This document shows, one piece after another, positions 15,097 to 47,759 of a stretch of 64,000 nucleotides of DNA. How positions within the stretch are numbered: the first letter of the stretch is position 1; each line of letters starts with the position of its first letter. A model generated the notes under the pieces. That model made no database searches and was not told the DNA's origin. It was given only the letters and a program-made list of their open reading frames with translations. The stretch is from Nitrospirales bacterium (GTDB lineage Bacteria > Nitrospirota > Nitrospiria > Nitrospirales > UBA8639), in NCBI GenBank assembly GCA_029261295.1, contig JAJDBP010000024.1, positions 62,001 to 126,000 of the forward strand, in the 5' to 3' direction. A program made the translations under genes and the position numbers.

Positions 15097-16137
15097 TTAA
15101 CGATAAGGTTTAAATTCATATTCGTTGAAAAGACGCTTGGTTTCCGGGTGAAACCGATACCCTTTTTGTTGTTGAATATCTCGGTTTTCTAGTAAGGGAA
15201 CCAGTTGACCTGATGGGTGTAAATAGAGAGCTCGTAGGGGAACAGACCGTTTCGTGTGCCGAATAAGGTGGCAGGAAGTTGTCGGGCGAATTGCCGTTAA
15301 CCATTCAGCTAATTCCTGAGGATTTCCAATTGACGCCGAAAGCAGAAGGAGACGTGTTTGCGTAGGGCAGAGAATGAGGGTTTCTTCCCAGACCACTCCT
15401 CGTTCGGGATCGGCTAAATATTGGGATTCGTCCAGAATTACCAGGCCTAAAGTGTGAAGACGGAGGTCAAGGTCTCCACTTGTGGCATCATAGAGAATAT
15501 TTCGCAGAATTTCTGTGGTCATGATCAGCAGAGGAGCCTGAGAATTGTCCCGACGATCTCCAGTAAGAATGCCGACTTGATCTTTGCCAAAAAACTGAGA
15601 GAATTCCATATATTTCGTATTGGAAAGGGCTTTCAATGGAGAGGTGTATATAACCGTTTGGTTTCTGGCCATGGCCTGTTGGATGGCTTCGGTTGCTACA
15701 AATGTTTTTCCGCTTCCTGTAGGCGCACTCACAATGACATCCGAGTGGGCAATGGCTTCCACTGCTTCCTTCTGCCAGTCATCTGGAATAAATGGCTTAG
15801 GCTCTGGGACCCCTATGCCTTCTAGAAGGTCTTGCAAGCCAATGGCTGAGGAGGGCGGGGCAGACTTTGAGAGTTTTTTAGGGGAAGACCGTTTGGGATA
15901 AAAGGGCGATGATGATTTAGGGTTGCCCGATGTGGCCGGGGATTTTTTCGGGCTGGTAGAAATCTGTTCGACCTCATGAGCGATGGCCATTTTTTGCTCG
16001 GATGGGAGTGCCAGTATAGAGTCAATGAGCCGTCGTTTACTCAAGCGAAAATGACGATGAATTCGCCCTTTTGCAAATTTATGCAAATACTTGATAGGCA
16101 GGGAGACTAACTCACGCTGGAGATCGGCATCGTTCAT
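15097..16137 (-). CDS. Split Ski2-like helicase, RecA1 (ATP-binding) subunit
   Basis: 346 residues ending right after the first RecA domain. A basic SAP-like N-terminus (1-60) and a low-complexity S/P/K linker (60-98) precede the helicase part: Q122, Walker A APTGSGKT at 138-145, motif Ia TSPLKALSNTK at 165-175, Ib TTEILRN at 207-213, motif II DESQ at 236-239, motif III SAS at 267-269 with IGNPQELAEWL, typical of Ski2/Mtr4/HelY. Motifs IV-VI are absent; they are encoded by the gene 22 bases upstream (16160-18019). So the ATPase half is the second cistron, though in normal proteins it is N-terminal. The DESQ box in place of DExH is unusual. RNA unwinding or remodelling is inferred. Confidence 0.85.
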   Translation of the reverse strand: MNDADLQRELVSLPIKYLHKFAKGRIHRHFRLSKRRLIDSILALPSEQKMAIAHEVEQISTSPKKSPATSGNPKSSSPFYPKRSSPKKLSKSAPPSSAIGLQDLLEGIGVPEPKPFIPDDWQKEAVEAIAHSDVIVSAPTGSGKTFVATEAIQQAMARNQTVIYTSPLKALSNTKYMEFSQFFGKDQVGILTGDRRDNSQAPLLIMTTEILRNILYDATSGDLDLRLHTLGLVILDESQYLADPERGVVWEETLILCPTQTRLLLLSASIGNPQELAEWLTAIRPTTSCHLIRHTKRSVPLRALYLHPSGQLVPLLENRDIQQQKGYRFHPETKRLFNEYEFKPYR

Positions 16138-16159
16138 TTCAAATAATCACTTTCAAATT

Positions 16160-18019
16160 CTAGGGCAATTCTGCCAGCACTTCCCGACGCATATTGACCA
16201 TGGCCTGATGGGCCGTATCTGCTAATCCCGGATGTGTGGCTTTGAGTCCATATATTTGTGAAAGAAATTCTAAGGTTCTCGCCAACAATCGATAGACATC
16301 TCCTTCGGCCATTGAGGTTGAGCGCACCAAAGATGCCCAACTGAGTTCTGTTTGCCCAATCCATCGTTCGGCAATGGCCGCCACATCCGAACGTAATAAA
16401 GGGGTGGGTTCATAGGCCCTGAGGGAATCAGCGACTTGGCGGACTTGTGCCAGCATGGTAGCCAGGCCCGGTGTCAGACGCATGTATGAACTCGGGCGAT
16501 CATCGTCATGGGCAATACTCGCCATCACACCTGCTAATAACTCTGGTGCGATCCCAGAGAAGGCCTCCATGCGAATGAGTTCCGTAATGAGTAGCGAATG
16601 ATTGATGCGAATGAGCCGTCCCCATTCTCCCGTATCCGTTAATTGAAGTGTGGCTGTGAGATAGCCAAATTTATGTAACACATCTGCTTTTCTTTGAAAT
16701 TGATGCCAGAGTCCATCGCGTAAGGCTTGAATAGTTTTGGTGGCTTGTTGAGCTTTTAATTGAAGGCGTGAAGCCACGGCGACATCTTTTTTACATGCTT
16801 CATGGGAGGGACAGGTAGGACAGGCAAATTCCTCAGTTAAAATGTTGGACAAAAGAGGATCGTCTGGTTCTTGGCTGGCTTCGAGTATCGGCAAGGTTGG
16901 TGGTCGTACTGGTAGTTGAGAGAGGATGTTCTTGAACTGATGGAGTGTCCTTGGTGGACACCAGGGCAGGTTGCGGATGGGTTGAAATTCATGGACCTGA
17001 TCATAGATCTCAACCACCCGTTGGGCCTGGCATTCTCCCAGGGTGCCTTTGGCATGGAGCACGGATAACATTGGAGTTCCCGTACCTCGACTTCGATATT
17101 GTCGAAGAATTATAGCTGGACCTTTGGCCAATCCGATGAGTCTTCCGGCAGTGAGAAATGGTAAGCAGGCGGTGAGGTAGGGAGAATCGGTATTGACGAC
17201 TGGCCGTCGATGGGCTTTGCGACGTCGGGCGAGATCAAAGACTTTCCATTGGGCAACCCAATCGGCACATTCTCTTGGCCCATAAGGTTTCAATTGTTCC
17301 TGAAGTTCACCTAACCGGTCTTGGTGAATGGCCGCTCGCTGATTTAATTGAAATTGCGCAAAACTTTTTGCCAATAGGCCTTCAATTTGATCTAAGGCAT
17401 GAGCCTTCAACAGATTCAGAACCATGGGAAAGGAGACGACAAATTGGCTGTCTATTGGTTCCGGTTGCCCGGTTAGGCCTTTGCCCAGAACATGCAGGTC
17501 GATATATGGCGAGGGGGTGACCACGACAAATCCCACAAAATCTTTTCCTCTCCGACCTCCTCGTCCAGCTAATTGCTGAATTTCACTGACCGTCAAGTCT
17601 GCGAAGTCTTGAGATTTGCGTACACTGGACTGGCTGACGACGACCGTGCGGGCTGGGAAATCCACCCCGGCTGCCAAGGTAGTCGTGGCAAATACGGCAT
17701 CAAGTAGGCCCTGGCGCATGAGTTCTTCAATGGCAATTTTCCAGGAAGGTAGATGTCCTGCGTGATGTGCTGCTACGCCATAGTCTTGGACCACCGGAAT
17801 GAGGGGATGGTTGGCGATACTTGGGAATTCCTTGGAAAATTTTTCGAGAAAGGTTCGGATTTCTTCGCTTCGAGAAGCTGAGACACCAGCGGTGCTATGG
17901 ATAAAGGTATCGATAGCCTCGTCGCATCCTCGCCGTGAGGTCAAGAAAATAATGGCTGGGGTTAAGCGATGTTGGCGAAGAATATCGACAAGATCAATCG
18001 GGTGAATGGCTGGTGGCAT
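16160..18019 (-). CDS. Split Ski2-like helicase, RecA2 plus C-terminal subunit
   Basis: 619 residues that begin directly at the second RecA domain: motif IV IFLTSRRGCDEA (24-35), AAHHAGHLP (83-91), motif V ATTTLAAGVDFP (111-122), motif VI QQLAGRGGRRG (148-158). The last resembles QxxGRxGR but has G where A is usual. A helical region follows with cysteines C399, C402 and C408 (CPTCPSHEAC), like the cysteine stretch of HelY, then a DSHCT-like C-terminus. No Walker A or B is present, so it cannot work alone as a helicase; its partner is the next gene. It is the first cistron of the pair, transcribed away from the STAS gene. Confidence 0.85.
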   Translation of the reverse strand: MPPAIHPIDLVDILRQHRLTPAIIFLTSRRGCDEAIDTFIHSTAGVSASRSEEIRTFLEKFSKEFPSIANHPLIPVVQDYGVAAHHAGHLPSWKIAIEELMRQGLLDAVFATTTLAAGVDFPARTVVVSQSSVRKSQDFADLTVSEIQQLAGRGGRRGKDFVGFVVVTPSPYIDLHVLGKGLTGQPEPIDSQFVVSFPMVLNLLKAHALDQIEGLLAKSFAQFQLNQRAAIHQDRLGELQEQLKPYGPRECADWVAQWKVFDLARRRKAHRRPVVNTDSPYLTACLPFLTAGRLIGLAKGPAIILRQYRSRGTGTPMLSVLHAKGTLGECQAQRVVEIYDQVHEFQPIRNLPWCPPRTLHQFKNILSQLPVRPPTLPILEASQEPDDPLLSNILTEEFACPTCPSHEACKKDVAVASRLQLKAQQATKTIQALRDGLWHQFQRKADVLHKFGYLTATLQLTDTGEWGRLIRINHSLLITELIRMEAFSGIAPELLAGVMASIAHDDDRPSSYMRLTPGLATMLAQVRQVADSLRAYEPTPLLRSDVAAIAERWIGQTELSWASLVRSTSMAEGDVYRLLARTLEFLSQIYGLKATHPGLADTAHQAMVNMRREVLAELP

Positions 18020-27245: not shown

Positions 27246-28778
27246 ATGAAAAAGCGCGGGTGGTTAAATACATTTTCTGGAAATCGGGTCTATACACTTC
27301 GGAATGCCCAAAATAGTCTTCTTCAGGTATTACTGAAAAAATTTACAATAATAAAAGATGGACATGGGATTACTCTCCACGTCAAATTTGATGAAAAAAG
27401 TCCCGCTATCAGACAGAGAGAGGCAAAAAACACTATTAGAGGTCAAATGCCTGGTTATCCTAAGCAGGTAAAAGAAATTTCCGAAAAAATCGAAAGTGTA
27501 TTTTTTGGAAATGCCAAGTCTTACCAATTTAAAAGCCAGGATTTTGCCTTTCGTTTCGCTAGTGGTGGCACCCTTCCTATTATTTCTATTGATGGCCAAG
27601 AATATTATTGCTTTTTTTATCGAGACATAGACCCCGTTGGCTGGAATATTGCTAACGGGGCTTGTGATTCTTATAGTGAATTACGAAATCCCAAACTTGC
27701 GATTGAACGTGAGTTACGTGAAGAACTAATAATTTATGATCTGCGAACAGAACCATATAAAGATTACATTTTTTCTTGGAAAAATCAGAAAACGATTGAA
27801 GTTCCGGAATTTAGGGATGTAAGAAATTTATGGAACAAAATATTATTTTTAGAAGGTGGTTTGTCTGGAGGTTTCGAAAAGGTCGGAGTTGCAGTTGAAT
27901 GGGCAGATCTTGGCCCAGATAATCTTGTTTTAGATTTTGACGGTTATGCTAATCCTCAAGGTGGTTTTTATCTGAATATAAACGCAGAAGACTTTGGAAT
28001 TGAATTTGATCGAATAGGGAAAATTAAATTAAATTCTGGTCTCGTACTTCTAGATGGTGAAATGAATAATAACCGCCTTCTTAAAAGACCAATAGGTCTC
28101 TTTGAAGTGGAAAAAACGCAAGAAGCAGTGTTCGATGGCACTCTTACTTTTTTGCCTGATCGGCTGTTCTATGACGGTAGTCTGGTCGCAAATAGTTCAT
28201 TGCGGTCAACTAAAATTTTCACTCGAAAAATACTAGAAAAATATTTTAAATATCTAGTAGAAAATGGAATTCGAAAACCAAAAGAAATACAGAATTGGCG
28301 AAACCTTGTTCAAGGAAAACCTCCCAACCCTCAATTTAATTTATGCCCCGTTACTCGGAAAATTATACGTCGTCATATGCACACAGAAAGACACCTAATT
28401 TTTATATGTTATAGCCACGATGATCGGGAATTGGCTGAAAAAATCCATTCTGCTATGGAATTGAAGGGAATAAAGGCCTGGAGAGATTTAAGGGAAATTC
28501 CGGCAGGCAAAGATGGCGATAGTGTTATTCAGAAGGCAATAGAAGATTGTACGCATGTTATCTTTCTCGCGTCTCCTCGTTCTGTTCAAAGTTCTTATAT
28601 AAAAAATGAATTGCAATATGCTAGTGATCTTGGAAAAGGGGGAGTGGTATTAATGCTTGAAGCATGTGAAGGAATTCCTTTAAGCGTGGTTCGTTGGCCA
28701 ATAATTTACTTTAAAAATAGATTTAGCAAAGGTCTAGTAGAAATGTTTTTGACAATAAGTAGTTCTAATTCTCGTTAA
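27246..28778 (+). CDS. Nudix-like domain / TIR domain fusion protein
   Basis: 510 residues. The middle carries a Nudix-like box: G138, E145, R155-E156-L157 and E159-E160 (AIERELREELII), with about three residues more than the canonical spacing. The C-terminus from about 383 is a TIR domain: HLIFICYSHDDRELAEKI, AWRDLREIPAGKDG, THVIFLASPRSVQSSYIKNELQYA, where E455 aligns with the catalytic glutamate of NAD+-consuming TIRs. No transmembrane segment. TIR enzymes act as cell-suicide or signalling effectors in phage defence; Nudix domains act on ADP-ribose-like nucleotides, so both halves point to NAD metabolism (inference). The gene is AT-rich and preceded by 670 bases without a gene. The first 100 residues were not recognised. 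Confidence 0.75.
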   Translation: MKKRGWLNTFSGNRVYTLRNAQNSLLQVLLKKFTIIKDGHGITLHVKFDEKSPAIRQREAKNTIRGQMPGYPKQVKEISEKIESVFFGNAKSYQFKSQDFAFRFASGGTLPIISIDGQEYYCFFYRDIDPVGWNIANGACDSYSELRNPKLAIERELREELIIYDLRTEPYKDYIFSWKNQKTIEVPEFRDVRNLWNKILFLEGGLSGGFEKVGVAVEWADLGPDNLVLDFDGYANPQGGFYLNINAEDFGIEFDRIGKIKLNSGLVLLDGEMNNNRLLKRPIGLFEVEKTQEAVFDGTLTFLPDRLFYDGSLVANSSLRSTKIFTRKILEKYFKYLVENGIRKPKEIQNWRNLVQGKPPNPQFNLCPVTRKIIRRHMHTERHLIFICYSHDDRELAEKIHSAMELKGIKAWRDLREIPAGKDGDSVIQKAIEDCTHVIFLASPRSVQSSYIKNELQYASDLGKGGVVLMLEACEGIPLSVVRWPIIYFKNRFSKGLVEMFLTISSSNSR

Positions 28779-28878
28779 GCTAATTTTATGAAAATCTTTA
28801 TCAGATTGTGTTCTTGATGTTCTAGTATTCAAGTGAGTTTTATGAGATTTGGAAAAAAATAATGTTCAGGAGGATTTT

Positions 28879-29820
28879 GTGGAAACAAGAATTATCATAA
28901 ATTTTTCATATAGTGGATTTAAAAAAGAAACAAAAATGGAAGATTTGTTTTGGAAGGCTATTGATGTAGCTGAACGGGCGACAAGCAGGCGAAATTTACT
29001 TATAGTTCTGAATAACGATACTGTAGCTCGTGGTCAAGCAAAAGCTTTCTTGAAAGATACTCGAAGCGCAGATTTAGAGATTCTTCGTGTCTGGTCCGTT
29101 GATACGTGTCAAATGTGGCTAAGTGGTTGGGGGTACGTTATTGATAAATATAAAAAGGCGGATCGCATCGTCCAAATTCCTGGAGATTTAGACGCAATAA
29201 AAGAGCCGGCGGATTTTTATGCAAAATTGGGAAATTTCTTTTGTTTAGGAGGTCCTTTTGATTTAACGATAGGAGATTTTCAAACCGGGGATCAATTTGG
29301 TTCAAAAAGTCTTATCGACACCTATGGTACCTATCCACTGATGACAAATTGGTTTCCTGATTTGACCAAGGAAATATTTTATTTGCCTCTGGAGCGTCCA
29401 AGGTCAGAATTTCTAAACCTAAAAATTAGTTCTTTAAAAAAATTATTATATTATAGGAAATTTGCATATGAACAAACTCTTAATATGTTAATTCGTTCTT
29501 GGAACTTTAAAACTAAAGAGTGGGAGTGCAACGTTCAGCCTCATGATTTAGGAGAAATTCGAGATGATAGCAGTAAGCGTAAATACTTAAGTTGCATGGA
29601 TCAGATTGAACGTACAGAACGAATGTTAAAGGTTATTTGGAAGGAAATAAATGGTCCCAAGAATCATGCATATAGTAAAAGTTATCGAAAGTTTATTCAT
29701 GATTATAATATTTTGGAACGACTTTCAACCTCTATGAGAGAAACTGCAGGGATAACAATAAGAGGGTTACTAGGCCTTGGTGATGGACCAGATATGCTCT
29801 CTCCTCATCCTAATAATTAA
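28879..29820 (+). CDS. Possible GT-A-fold sugar/nucleotide transferase-like protein
   Basis: 313 residues from a GTG at 28879, chosen because AGGAGG at 28868-28873 sits five bases upstream; the frame is open to a TTG at 28849. The N-terminal half looks alpha/beta: LLIVLNNDTVARGQAKAFL, then DRIVQIPGDLDAIKEP with a DxD-like GDLD (102-105), and a distinctive TIGDFQTGDQFGSKSLID followed by GTYPLMTNWFPD. This pattern resembles GT-A nucleotide-diphospho-sugar enzymes but the match is weak. The C-terminal third is helical and charged. It follows the Nudix-TIR gene by 100 bases on the same strand. Confidence 0.4.
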   Translation: METRIIINFSYSGFKKETKMEDLFWKAIDVAERATSRRNLLIVLNNDTVARGQAKAFLKDTRSADLEILRVWSVDTCQMWLSGWGYVIDKYKKADRIVQIPGDLDAIKEPADFYAKLGNFFCLGGPFDLTIGDFQTGDQFGSKSLIDTYGTYPLMTNWFPDLTKEIFYLPLERPRSEFLNLKISSLKKLLYYRKFAYEQTLNMLIRSWNFKTKEWECNVQPHDLGEIRDDSSKRKYLSCMDQIERTERMLKVIWKEINGPKNHAYSKSYRKFIHDYNILERLSTSMRETAGITIRGLLGLGDGPDMLSPHPNN

Positions 29821-45986: not shown

Positions 45987-47759
45987 ATGAATATCTCGAC
46001 CATCTTGCAGCACCCAGAAGCTATTCGATTTCCTGGAAATCAGATCTATAAAGACAGGTGGCAAACTTCGAATGGACGTATGCTGGAGTTACCTTCTGGG
46101 CATCGTGTTCTGTATGGGGAACATGGCCAACGAATCTTGCTAACTGATCCTGATGGGCATCCCCTTCACGAATGTCTTTGGGGAACGAACACTAGCGGTT
46201 TTCCCAAATTACTCCTTTCAAGATTTCGATTAGATTGGGGAAAATGGGTGGGGATTAAACCTGAGGGCCTGGTGAATACCATCTCTTTGGATCTCTCAAG
46301 ACGCCCAGGTTGGGAGCGGCTGACACGAGATGATCTTCGTGAAATGGCTGCTCGGGCCATGAATGCCGATATTGCTACGATCAGATTTTTTTATCGTGAT
46401 GAAGATTTAGAAATTCATGCGGATGGCCAAGCCTTTATTCGCCAGGTCAAAGACGCCTTCTATGTGTTGAAGGATGGATCATTTGAGGGTGCGAGGTTCA
46501 TGTCATGTATGAGTCGAATGGAATGGGGGCACATTGATTACCTGCCAGTCGTGGAACTGTTTTTGTCTCTGCTCCCTGGTACTGGAAGCGCGACCTTTGA
46601 ATTGATCCGTGGTCTCTACGATGATCAGCAGAAGGGGCTGCCGACTTCTCTTCGTTATCGAGGGATTCCTGCTTATCCGTCCGTTGGAGCTTATCGATTA
46701 TTCAGTGCATTTTTTACGCCATCCACTCAATCAGGAGAGGTTCCTCAAGAGGTGTTTTTGGACGTAAATCGTTCCCATGAAGTGGGATGGACCGCATCAG
46801 ATGACCATCCAGTACGTTACGTTGATGACCAACAACGGCTCAGTCTGACGAGTCAGGCTCGGAAGGTTCAAAAAGTCACGTGCTGGGATGATCCATCAGG
46901 TTTGCCCTATTTGGCCACGACAACTTCTGGCGAGACAAAGTCTGATGGGCGTGGAGCTCAAATGATTGATCGGAAATTGCGTCTGTATGATGGCCCTCAT
47001 CATCAGATAGTAAACATTTCGGAATCTTGGTCTTTATCGATTCAGGAACCTAGCGAAGAATGGAAAGTGCCTCCAACTTCATGGCGGCAATGTTTTCCAG
47101 ATGGACATCCCGAGATACCTGCAGCGCAGGCTTTTTCTGCCGTCTTGCTCTATCCGGATGATGCACAAATTATTGGCGAAAAAGAAAGCCAACCCTTTGT
47201 TTTTGATTACGTGGATGACTTTGTCGACGAACACATAGAACTGCGCCAATGTCGTGAAATGGCTGATCACATTTTAGTGGTTGGATGTGAGGCAAGTCTT
47301 GGAGCTTGTCTCAAGTATGAACGCTCACAACGGTATACGATCTGGTATCAATGGCCAGAATTTGCCCAAAAACATGCGCAGCTGATTTGGAATACACTGC
47401 ACCGTCGTCATGCCATGTCTTGGTTGCCTAATTTTCAGTTTTTCTCCACAAGTCAAAAGTCTCTCACTCAAGCCTATGCTCCGTTTGATTGGATAAATAT
47501 CTGGATTCCATTCTCGGCCTATGACAATCAACAGGAGTTGAGGCAATGGACTCATTTTCTTGCTCATCATCTTGTGCCGGGAGGGATTGCCTGTGTCGGA
47601 GGTCCAAGGAGTTTAGGGCATCTGTTACAAGAGCAAGGGCTGTCTGTCGTCCATGCAGAACAGGGAGGGTCTCTTCCCCCTTATAAGATTCATCAAGCGA
47701 TTCTCCAAAACAGTCGGCTCCTGGATGAGTTAACTGTTTGGATTCTTCAACAATCATAG
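45987..47759 (+). CDS. Large unrecognised protein
   Basis: 590 residues, not recognised. The first 120 residues (RMLELPSGHRVLYGEHGQRILLTDPDG, DWGKWVGIKPEGLVNT) look beta-rich. A middle region resembles neither known enzymes nor repeats, with motifs PSVGAYRLFSAFF and PQEVFLDVNRSHE. The last 170 residues resemble a Rossmann or methyltransferase-like fold (HILVVGCEASLGACL, LVPGGIACVGGPRSLG), though the catalytic motif is not intact. No signal peptide or transmembrane helix is evident. Possibly co-transcribed with the coiled-coil gene 51 bases later. Confidence 0.6.
   Translation: MNISTILQHPEAIRFPGNQIYKDRWQTSNGRMLELPSGHRVLYGEHGQRILLTDPDGHPLHECLWGTNTSGFPKLLLSRFRLDWGKWVGIKPEGLVNTISLDLSRRPGWERLTRDDLREMAARAMNADIATIRFFYRDEDLEIHADGQAFIRQVKDAFYVLKDGSFEGARFMSCMSRMEWGHIDYLPVVELFLSLLPGTGSATFELIRGLYDDQQKGLPTSLRYRGIPAYPSVGAYRLFSAFFTPSTQSGEVPQEVFLDVNRSHEVGWTASDDHPVRYVDDQQRLSLTSQARKVQKVTCWDDPSGLPYLATTTSGETKSDGRGAQMIDRKLRLYDGPHHQIVNISESWSLSIQEPSEEWKVPPTSWRQCFPDGHPEIPAAQAFSAVLLYPDDAQIIGEKESQPFVFDYVDDFVDEHIELRQCREMADHILVVGCEASLGACLKYERSQRYTIWYQWPEFAQKHAQLIWNTLHRRHAMSWLPNFQFFSTSQKSLTQAYAPFDWINIWIPFSAYDNQQELRQWTHFLAHHLVPGGIACVGGPRSLGHLLQEQGLSVVHAEQGGSLPPYKIHQAILQNSRLLDELTVWILQQS

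Follow-up and report, generated by a model that had tools for sequence, protein, structure and literature searches.

Complementary halves of a Ski2-like DSHCT helicase are encoded by two genes in reversed order across Nitrospirales

Introduction

The usual definition of SF1 and SF2 helicases rests on two RecA domains, which follow each other on one chain in a set order. In the SF2 superfamily, motifs I and II of RecA1 bind ATP, and motifs V and VI of RecA2 complete the site. A locus from a Nitrospirales bacterium (assembly GCA_029261295.1, contig JAJDBP010000024.1) raises the question of whether such a motor can be divided between two proteins, as it contains one gene for RecA2 and the C-terminal domains followed by a second gene for RecA1. 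Here we describe this gene pair in its genomic context, a stretch of 64,000 nucleotides (the window), and in related genomes, and ask whether the two products are parts of one helicase, separate proteins, or fragments.

Results

Two adjacent genes share out a single set of helicase motifs

Both genes lie on the minus strand of the window, with gene 1 (18019-16160) read first and gene 2 (16137-15097) downstream. Their features are as follows.

16160..18019, minus strand: gene 1, first cistron (P0001), 619 aa, ATG start; RecA2, C-terminal domains and DSHCT
17420..17992, minus strand: gene 1 RecA2 domain with motifs IV-VI, residues ~10-200 (Pfam and Mtr4 comparison)
17546..17575, minus strand: gene 1 motif VI, QLAGRGGRRG, residues 149-158; R153, R156 and R157 invariant in 106 pairs
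16793..16822, minus strand: gene 1 C-x2-C-x5-C cluster, residues 400-409; all three Cys invariant in 106 pairs
16178..16648, minus strand: gene 1 DSHCT (NUC185), PF08148, residues 458-614; Pfam E 3.2e-22, above cut-off
16138..16159, minus strand: intergenic spacer, measured as 22 nt from the gene 1 stop to the gene 2 ATG
15097..16137, minus strand: gene 2, second cistron (P0002), 346 aa, ATG start; RecA1 subunit, Pfam DEAD
15958..16137, minus strand: gene 2 N-terminal basic four-helix domain, residues 1-60; conserved in families f1-f3, absent from f4, no Pfam family
15235..15792, minus strand: gene 2 RecA1 domain, residues 116-301 (Pfam and Mtr4/HelY comparison)
15703..15720, minus strand: gene 2 Walker A, TGSGKT, residues 140-145; invariant in 106 pairs
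15421..15432, minus strand: gene 2 motif II, DESQ, residues 236-239; D, E and Q invariant in 106 pairs
15331..15339, minus strand: gene 2 motif III, SAS, residues 267-269; invariant in 106 pairs

The coordinates, reading frames and domain content given in the initial annotation, with RecA2 motifs IV-VI and the C-terminal domains in one protein and RecA1 in the other, proved exact. In Pfam, gene 1 also matches Helicase_C (E 8.9e-6), and residues 121-274 of gene 2, which terminates past the RecA1 domain and a short linker, match DEAD (E 2.2e-23). The Mtr4-like stalk, PF21408, gave a weak match below the cut-off in a scan of the pair (E 0.0031). Walker A, motif II and motif III occur in gene 2 and not in gene 1, and inspection of the 619-aa gene 1 protein for motifs found neither Walker A nor Walker B. 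Conversely, the motif IV region (SRRxCDEA), AHHAG, motif V (ATTTLAAGVD) and motif VI occur in gene 1 and not in gene 2. Across the two halves, no conserved motif is doubled and none is missing.

In sequence comparisons, Mtr4, Ski2 and FRH score far higher than Hel308 or Brr2 for both proteins, and a search against Ski2, HelY and DSHCT families, which had been proposed at the outset as a check, places both in the DSHCT/Mtr4-Ski2-HelY subfamily. When profiles built from 37 relatives per half were mapped onto the Mtr4 chain 4u4c_A, gene 2 covered residues 34-257 and gene 1 covered residues 322-608 and 777-991; the two are adjacent with zero overlap, and residues 609-776, between the two gene 1 matches, are unmatched. 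Similarly, gene 2 aligns to RecA1 of Nonomuraea HelY (residues 76-255), while residues 8-616 of gene 1 align to residues 313-947, nearly all of the part that follows RecA1. The break therefore corresponds to the RecA1/RecA2 linker. Single-chain models predicted from 12-14 close relatives were poor (mean pLDDT 57 and 46); Foldseek searches with these low-confidence models returned Mtr4, Ski2 and FRH as top matches for both halves, which is consistent with the sequence results and proves nothing about docking. Judged by its sequence, the pair has the domains of a Ski2-like DSHCT helicase (motifs I-III, motifs IV-VI and DSHCT), but is not a single chain with RecA1 first.

The pair is widespread in Nitrospirales and usually present as a whole

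The window's genome (38 contigs, 100% complete, 3.5% contamination) carries one copy of each gene. The initial annotation had staked its reading against a full-length gene elsewhere in the same genome; we looked for one, and no full-length single-chain copy is present in these 38 contigs. Relatives at 74-92% identity are labelled as Nitrospirales, Nitrospirae, Nitrospirota or Nitrospira. Among 396 sampled Nitrospirota genomes, the DSHCT domain was found in 138 genomes of Nitrospirales and in one other, G185. Except for pieces at contig ends, the DSHCT proteins of the listed Nitrospirales genomes have the short gene 1 form, in frames of ~620-730 aa. A search of viral contigs found no relative.

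Both genes are present in 137 of the 144 sampled Nitrospirales genomes and both absent in 3/144 (G105, G331 and G347, with assemblies of 2.0-2.4 Mb). Smaller assemblies of 1.7-1.9 Mb (G161, G165, G317 and G245) keep both. The remaining 4/144 are discordant. In two of them, G216 (gene 2 only) and G235 (a gene 1 fragment), the loci lie at contig starts. In the other two, G036 and G151 (loci L091 and L092), gene 1 is intact, and neither gene 2 nor its usual neighbour was found, for which deletion and an assembly gap are equally possible explanations. A sugar-nucleotide (NAD-dependent epimerase-like) gene directly follows gene 1 in L092, L079 and L086; an island therefore seems to have been inserted between the two genes in that clade.

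Single-chain relatives with the normal domain order occur in Actinomycetota and in one neighbouring Nitrospiria genome, G185, which belongs to the same class and another family (f11). Its 718-aa DSHCT helicase (L076:2439-4595), the only full-length relative among the 396 genomes, has a RecA1 domain 42% identical to the split RecA1, no N-terminal extension, and DECH as motif II.

The swapped order recurs, and the genes are retained where they have parted

All 102 distinct pairs that could be read on one locus have both genes on the same strand with the RecA2 gene first. The swapped order for which related genomes were to be inspected thus recurs: in 101/102 pairs the gap is between -4 and 182 nt (median 72), with a 4-nt overlap in 13. 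Since many independent genomes throughout the order have the pair, some of them assembled as a single contig, the split is no effect of chance or assembly.

In several lineages the genes lie apart. In family f4 they are unlinked, being on different contigs in G311 and G357 and ~13.5 kb apart in G353, where gene 2 is cut by the contig end; elsewhere they are separated by 7 kb in G187 and 25 kb in G193, and lie on different contigs in G335. In G187, G193 and G353, gene 2 remains downstream of gene 1 on the same strand, as would be expected if inserts had parted former neighbours. An open frame of 1862 aa lies between the separated genes of G187 (L078:7226-12814). All motifs are kept in unlinked lineages with complete genes. 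Because both genes are retained in lineages that carry them apart, swapped adjacency is common but not essential.

Both halves are under constraint

No substitution occurs in Walker A, motif III or motif V across 106 distinct pairs, nor in the D, E and Q of motif II or the Q, G, R, G, R and R of motif VI. The start region of gene 1, MPPxIHPxDL, is nearly invariant in the same set. For close pairs, dN/dS ranged over 0.02-0.07 in gene 1 and 0.04-0.17 in gene 2; against the genes of the window itself it was 0.03-0.12, at high dS. The invariant cysteine cluster, which sits just ahead of the DSHCT region of gene 1, is a possible metal site. Motif II reads DESQ or, in two relatives, DEAQ, so that all 106 pairs have DExQ and not the DExH of Mtr4. 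Going by these alignments, the split lineage is fixed for Q at this position, as opposed to DECH in the single chain of G185.

Trees of the two halves each place Nitrospirales in one clade (100/99), with a similar grouping into families; long outgroup branches leave the position of the root inside the order uncertain. The distance matrices of gene 1 and gene 2 are correlated (0.93), which is expected for co-inherited genes and is not by itself evidence of binding.

The initial annotation had also described a basic, SAP-like tail on the RecA1 protein and suggested that it might help docking. A basic unit does exist, as an N-terminal extension: in the predicted model, residues 1-60 form a conserved unit of four helices (block pLDDT 70-89), and the linker behind it has low confidence. 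The SAP identity did not hold, as Pfam gave no SAP match at this terminus in any of 37 members; nor did the domain show any other Pfam relative in these members, or a PDB relative. The docking idea is weak because gene 2 of family f4 lacks the extension. On sequence grounds, the domain would not be required for pairing in f4, if pairing occurs there, and a role in nucleic-acid binding is a guess.

Other features of the window

Elsewhere in the window, a 510-aa protein (27246-28778, plus strand) has a TIR domain at its C-terminal end (PF13676, 1.4e-18) and an N-terminal part without a named Pfam family. Together with an adjoining 323-aa protein that has no Pfam match (28849-29820), it is possibly a defence or NAD-related pair. 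A 590-aa open frame at 45987-47759 (plus strand) likewise has no Pfam match.

Discussion

Taken together, these results make it very likely that the two genes encode two subunits of one HelY/Ski2-type (DSHCT) SF2 helicase, with the ATPase cleft between the chains. The proposal that a DSHCT-type Ski2 helicase has undergone fission, with its gene order swapped, is well supported by the complementary halves, the lack of a full-length copy, the existence of single-chain relatives and conservation throughout the order. In the two-subunit arrangement, the RecA1 subunit would bind ATP via motifs I and II, and the RecA2-ratchet-DSHCT subunit would supply motifs IV-VI, including the motif VI arginines, as well as C-terminal domains that guide the nucleic acid. 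The subunits would meet as RecA1 and RecA2 do in Mtr4 and Ski2, forming the ATPase cleft at their interface, and co-transcription with short gaps or ATGA overlaps could keep their synthesis balanced.

Alternatively, the two conserved proteins could act separately, with the RecA1 protein as a nucleic-acid-stimulated ATPase or switch and the RecA2-DSHCT protein as an RNA-binding scaffold that is not an ATPase. Each gene has its own start and stop, the RecA1 protein carries an extra N-terminal domain, and the genes are far apart in some lineages, all of which would fit such a division. However, it takes both RecA domains to form an SF2 ATPase site, the essentially invariant motifs V and VI of gene 1 would be purposeless if they never met ATP, and the genes are mostly present or lost jointly. 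We therefore regard separate action as improbable. Since invariance of both motif sets in separate proteins makes sense only if the proteins meet, a heterodimer that reproduces the Mtr4/HelY core is most likely; motif invariance, mostly concordant presence and absence, and retention when unlinked all argue strongly for assembly of the halves. As each half holds half of the ATP site and both genes are kept intact across Nitrospirales, the helicase very probably needs both halves to come together in order to work. Physical assembly, ATPase and unwinding activity, and RNA as the substrate are inferred.

It is less probable still that the halves differ in origin and were brought together, for example by horizontal arrival of one of them. 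The long outgroup branches, the uncertain root and the small number of single-chain relatives compared leave some room for this idea, but the two halves are members of a single subfamily, DSHCT/Mtr4-Ski2-HelY, and are cut at one and the same boundary, and their trees give one origin and similar family splits. A degenerate remnant of a decaying helicase gene, for which nothing speaks beyond the split itself, can be practically dismissed given the intact frames across Nitrospirales, dN/dS of 0.02-0.17, invariant motifs and retention even in assemblies of 1.7-1.9 Mb. An anti-phage defence reading of the pair was also considered and rejected, the resemblance to HamB and others being general helicase similarity.

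If the pair is a two-subunit helicase, the split probably arose once, before Nitrospirales diversified, when a gene for a single chain was divided at the RecA1/RecA2 linker and its halves were reversed. One possible route is a tandem duplication after which one copy lost its 5' part and the other its 3' part. Tandem duplication with complementary end loss would be the simplest account of fission with reversal; the route is unproven, because a search beside the genes found no remnants of a duplication.

We found no report in the open-access literature of DSHCT helicases in Nitrospira or of split SF2 helicase motors, and to our knowledge, which is not exhaustive, an SF2 motor whose two RecA domains have been parted, with the split fixed throughout an order, is new. 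Automatic annotation would probably label each half as an ordinary or truncated helicase and thereby hide the split. A natural, conserved split with reversed order offers a system for asking which linkage a helicase motor needs, how balance persists once the genes have moved apart, and how a permuted fission reaches fixation. We see about an even chance that Nitrospirales possess, order-wide, an SF2 motor with an obligatory ATP site between separately encoded RecA subunits, in which supply or docking of a subunit could switch the motor on or off.

Among known systems, the closest in domain content are single chains. HelY of Actinomycetota (references Nonomuraea, L116, and Microbacterium, L117) shares RecA1, RecA2, the C-terminal domains and DSHCT with the split pair, but is one chain with RecA1 first and DEVH as motif II, whereas the pair consists of two chains with the RecA2 gene first and DESQ. 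The eukaryotic exosome helicases and their relatives, Mtr4/Dob1, Ski2 and FRH, are the closest relatives in the PDB for either half, both in sequence and in Foldseek searches, and are single chains of ~1000 aa or more, in contrast to the two chains of the pair. Chloroplast ISE2, which is presumably related to DSHCT proteins and is set beside the pair by description, is again a single chain, unlike the pair. As a helicase, ISE2 has a role in the splicing of chloroplast RNA (PMC9497791). In Streptomyces, HelY is listed as an RNA helicase associated with the ribosome (PMC7157823), so by analogy the Nitrospirales pair may have a part in quality control of RNA or ribosomes. Enzymes encoded by split genes are themselves known, as topoisomerase 3 of Nanoarchaeum equitans is a heterodimer from a split gene (PMC4200833); it belongs to another enzyme class and is not a helicase motor.
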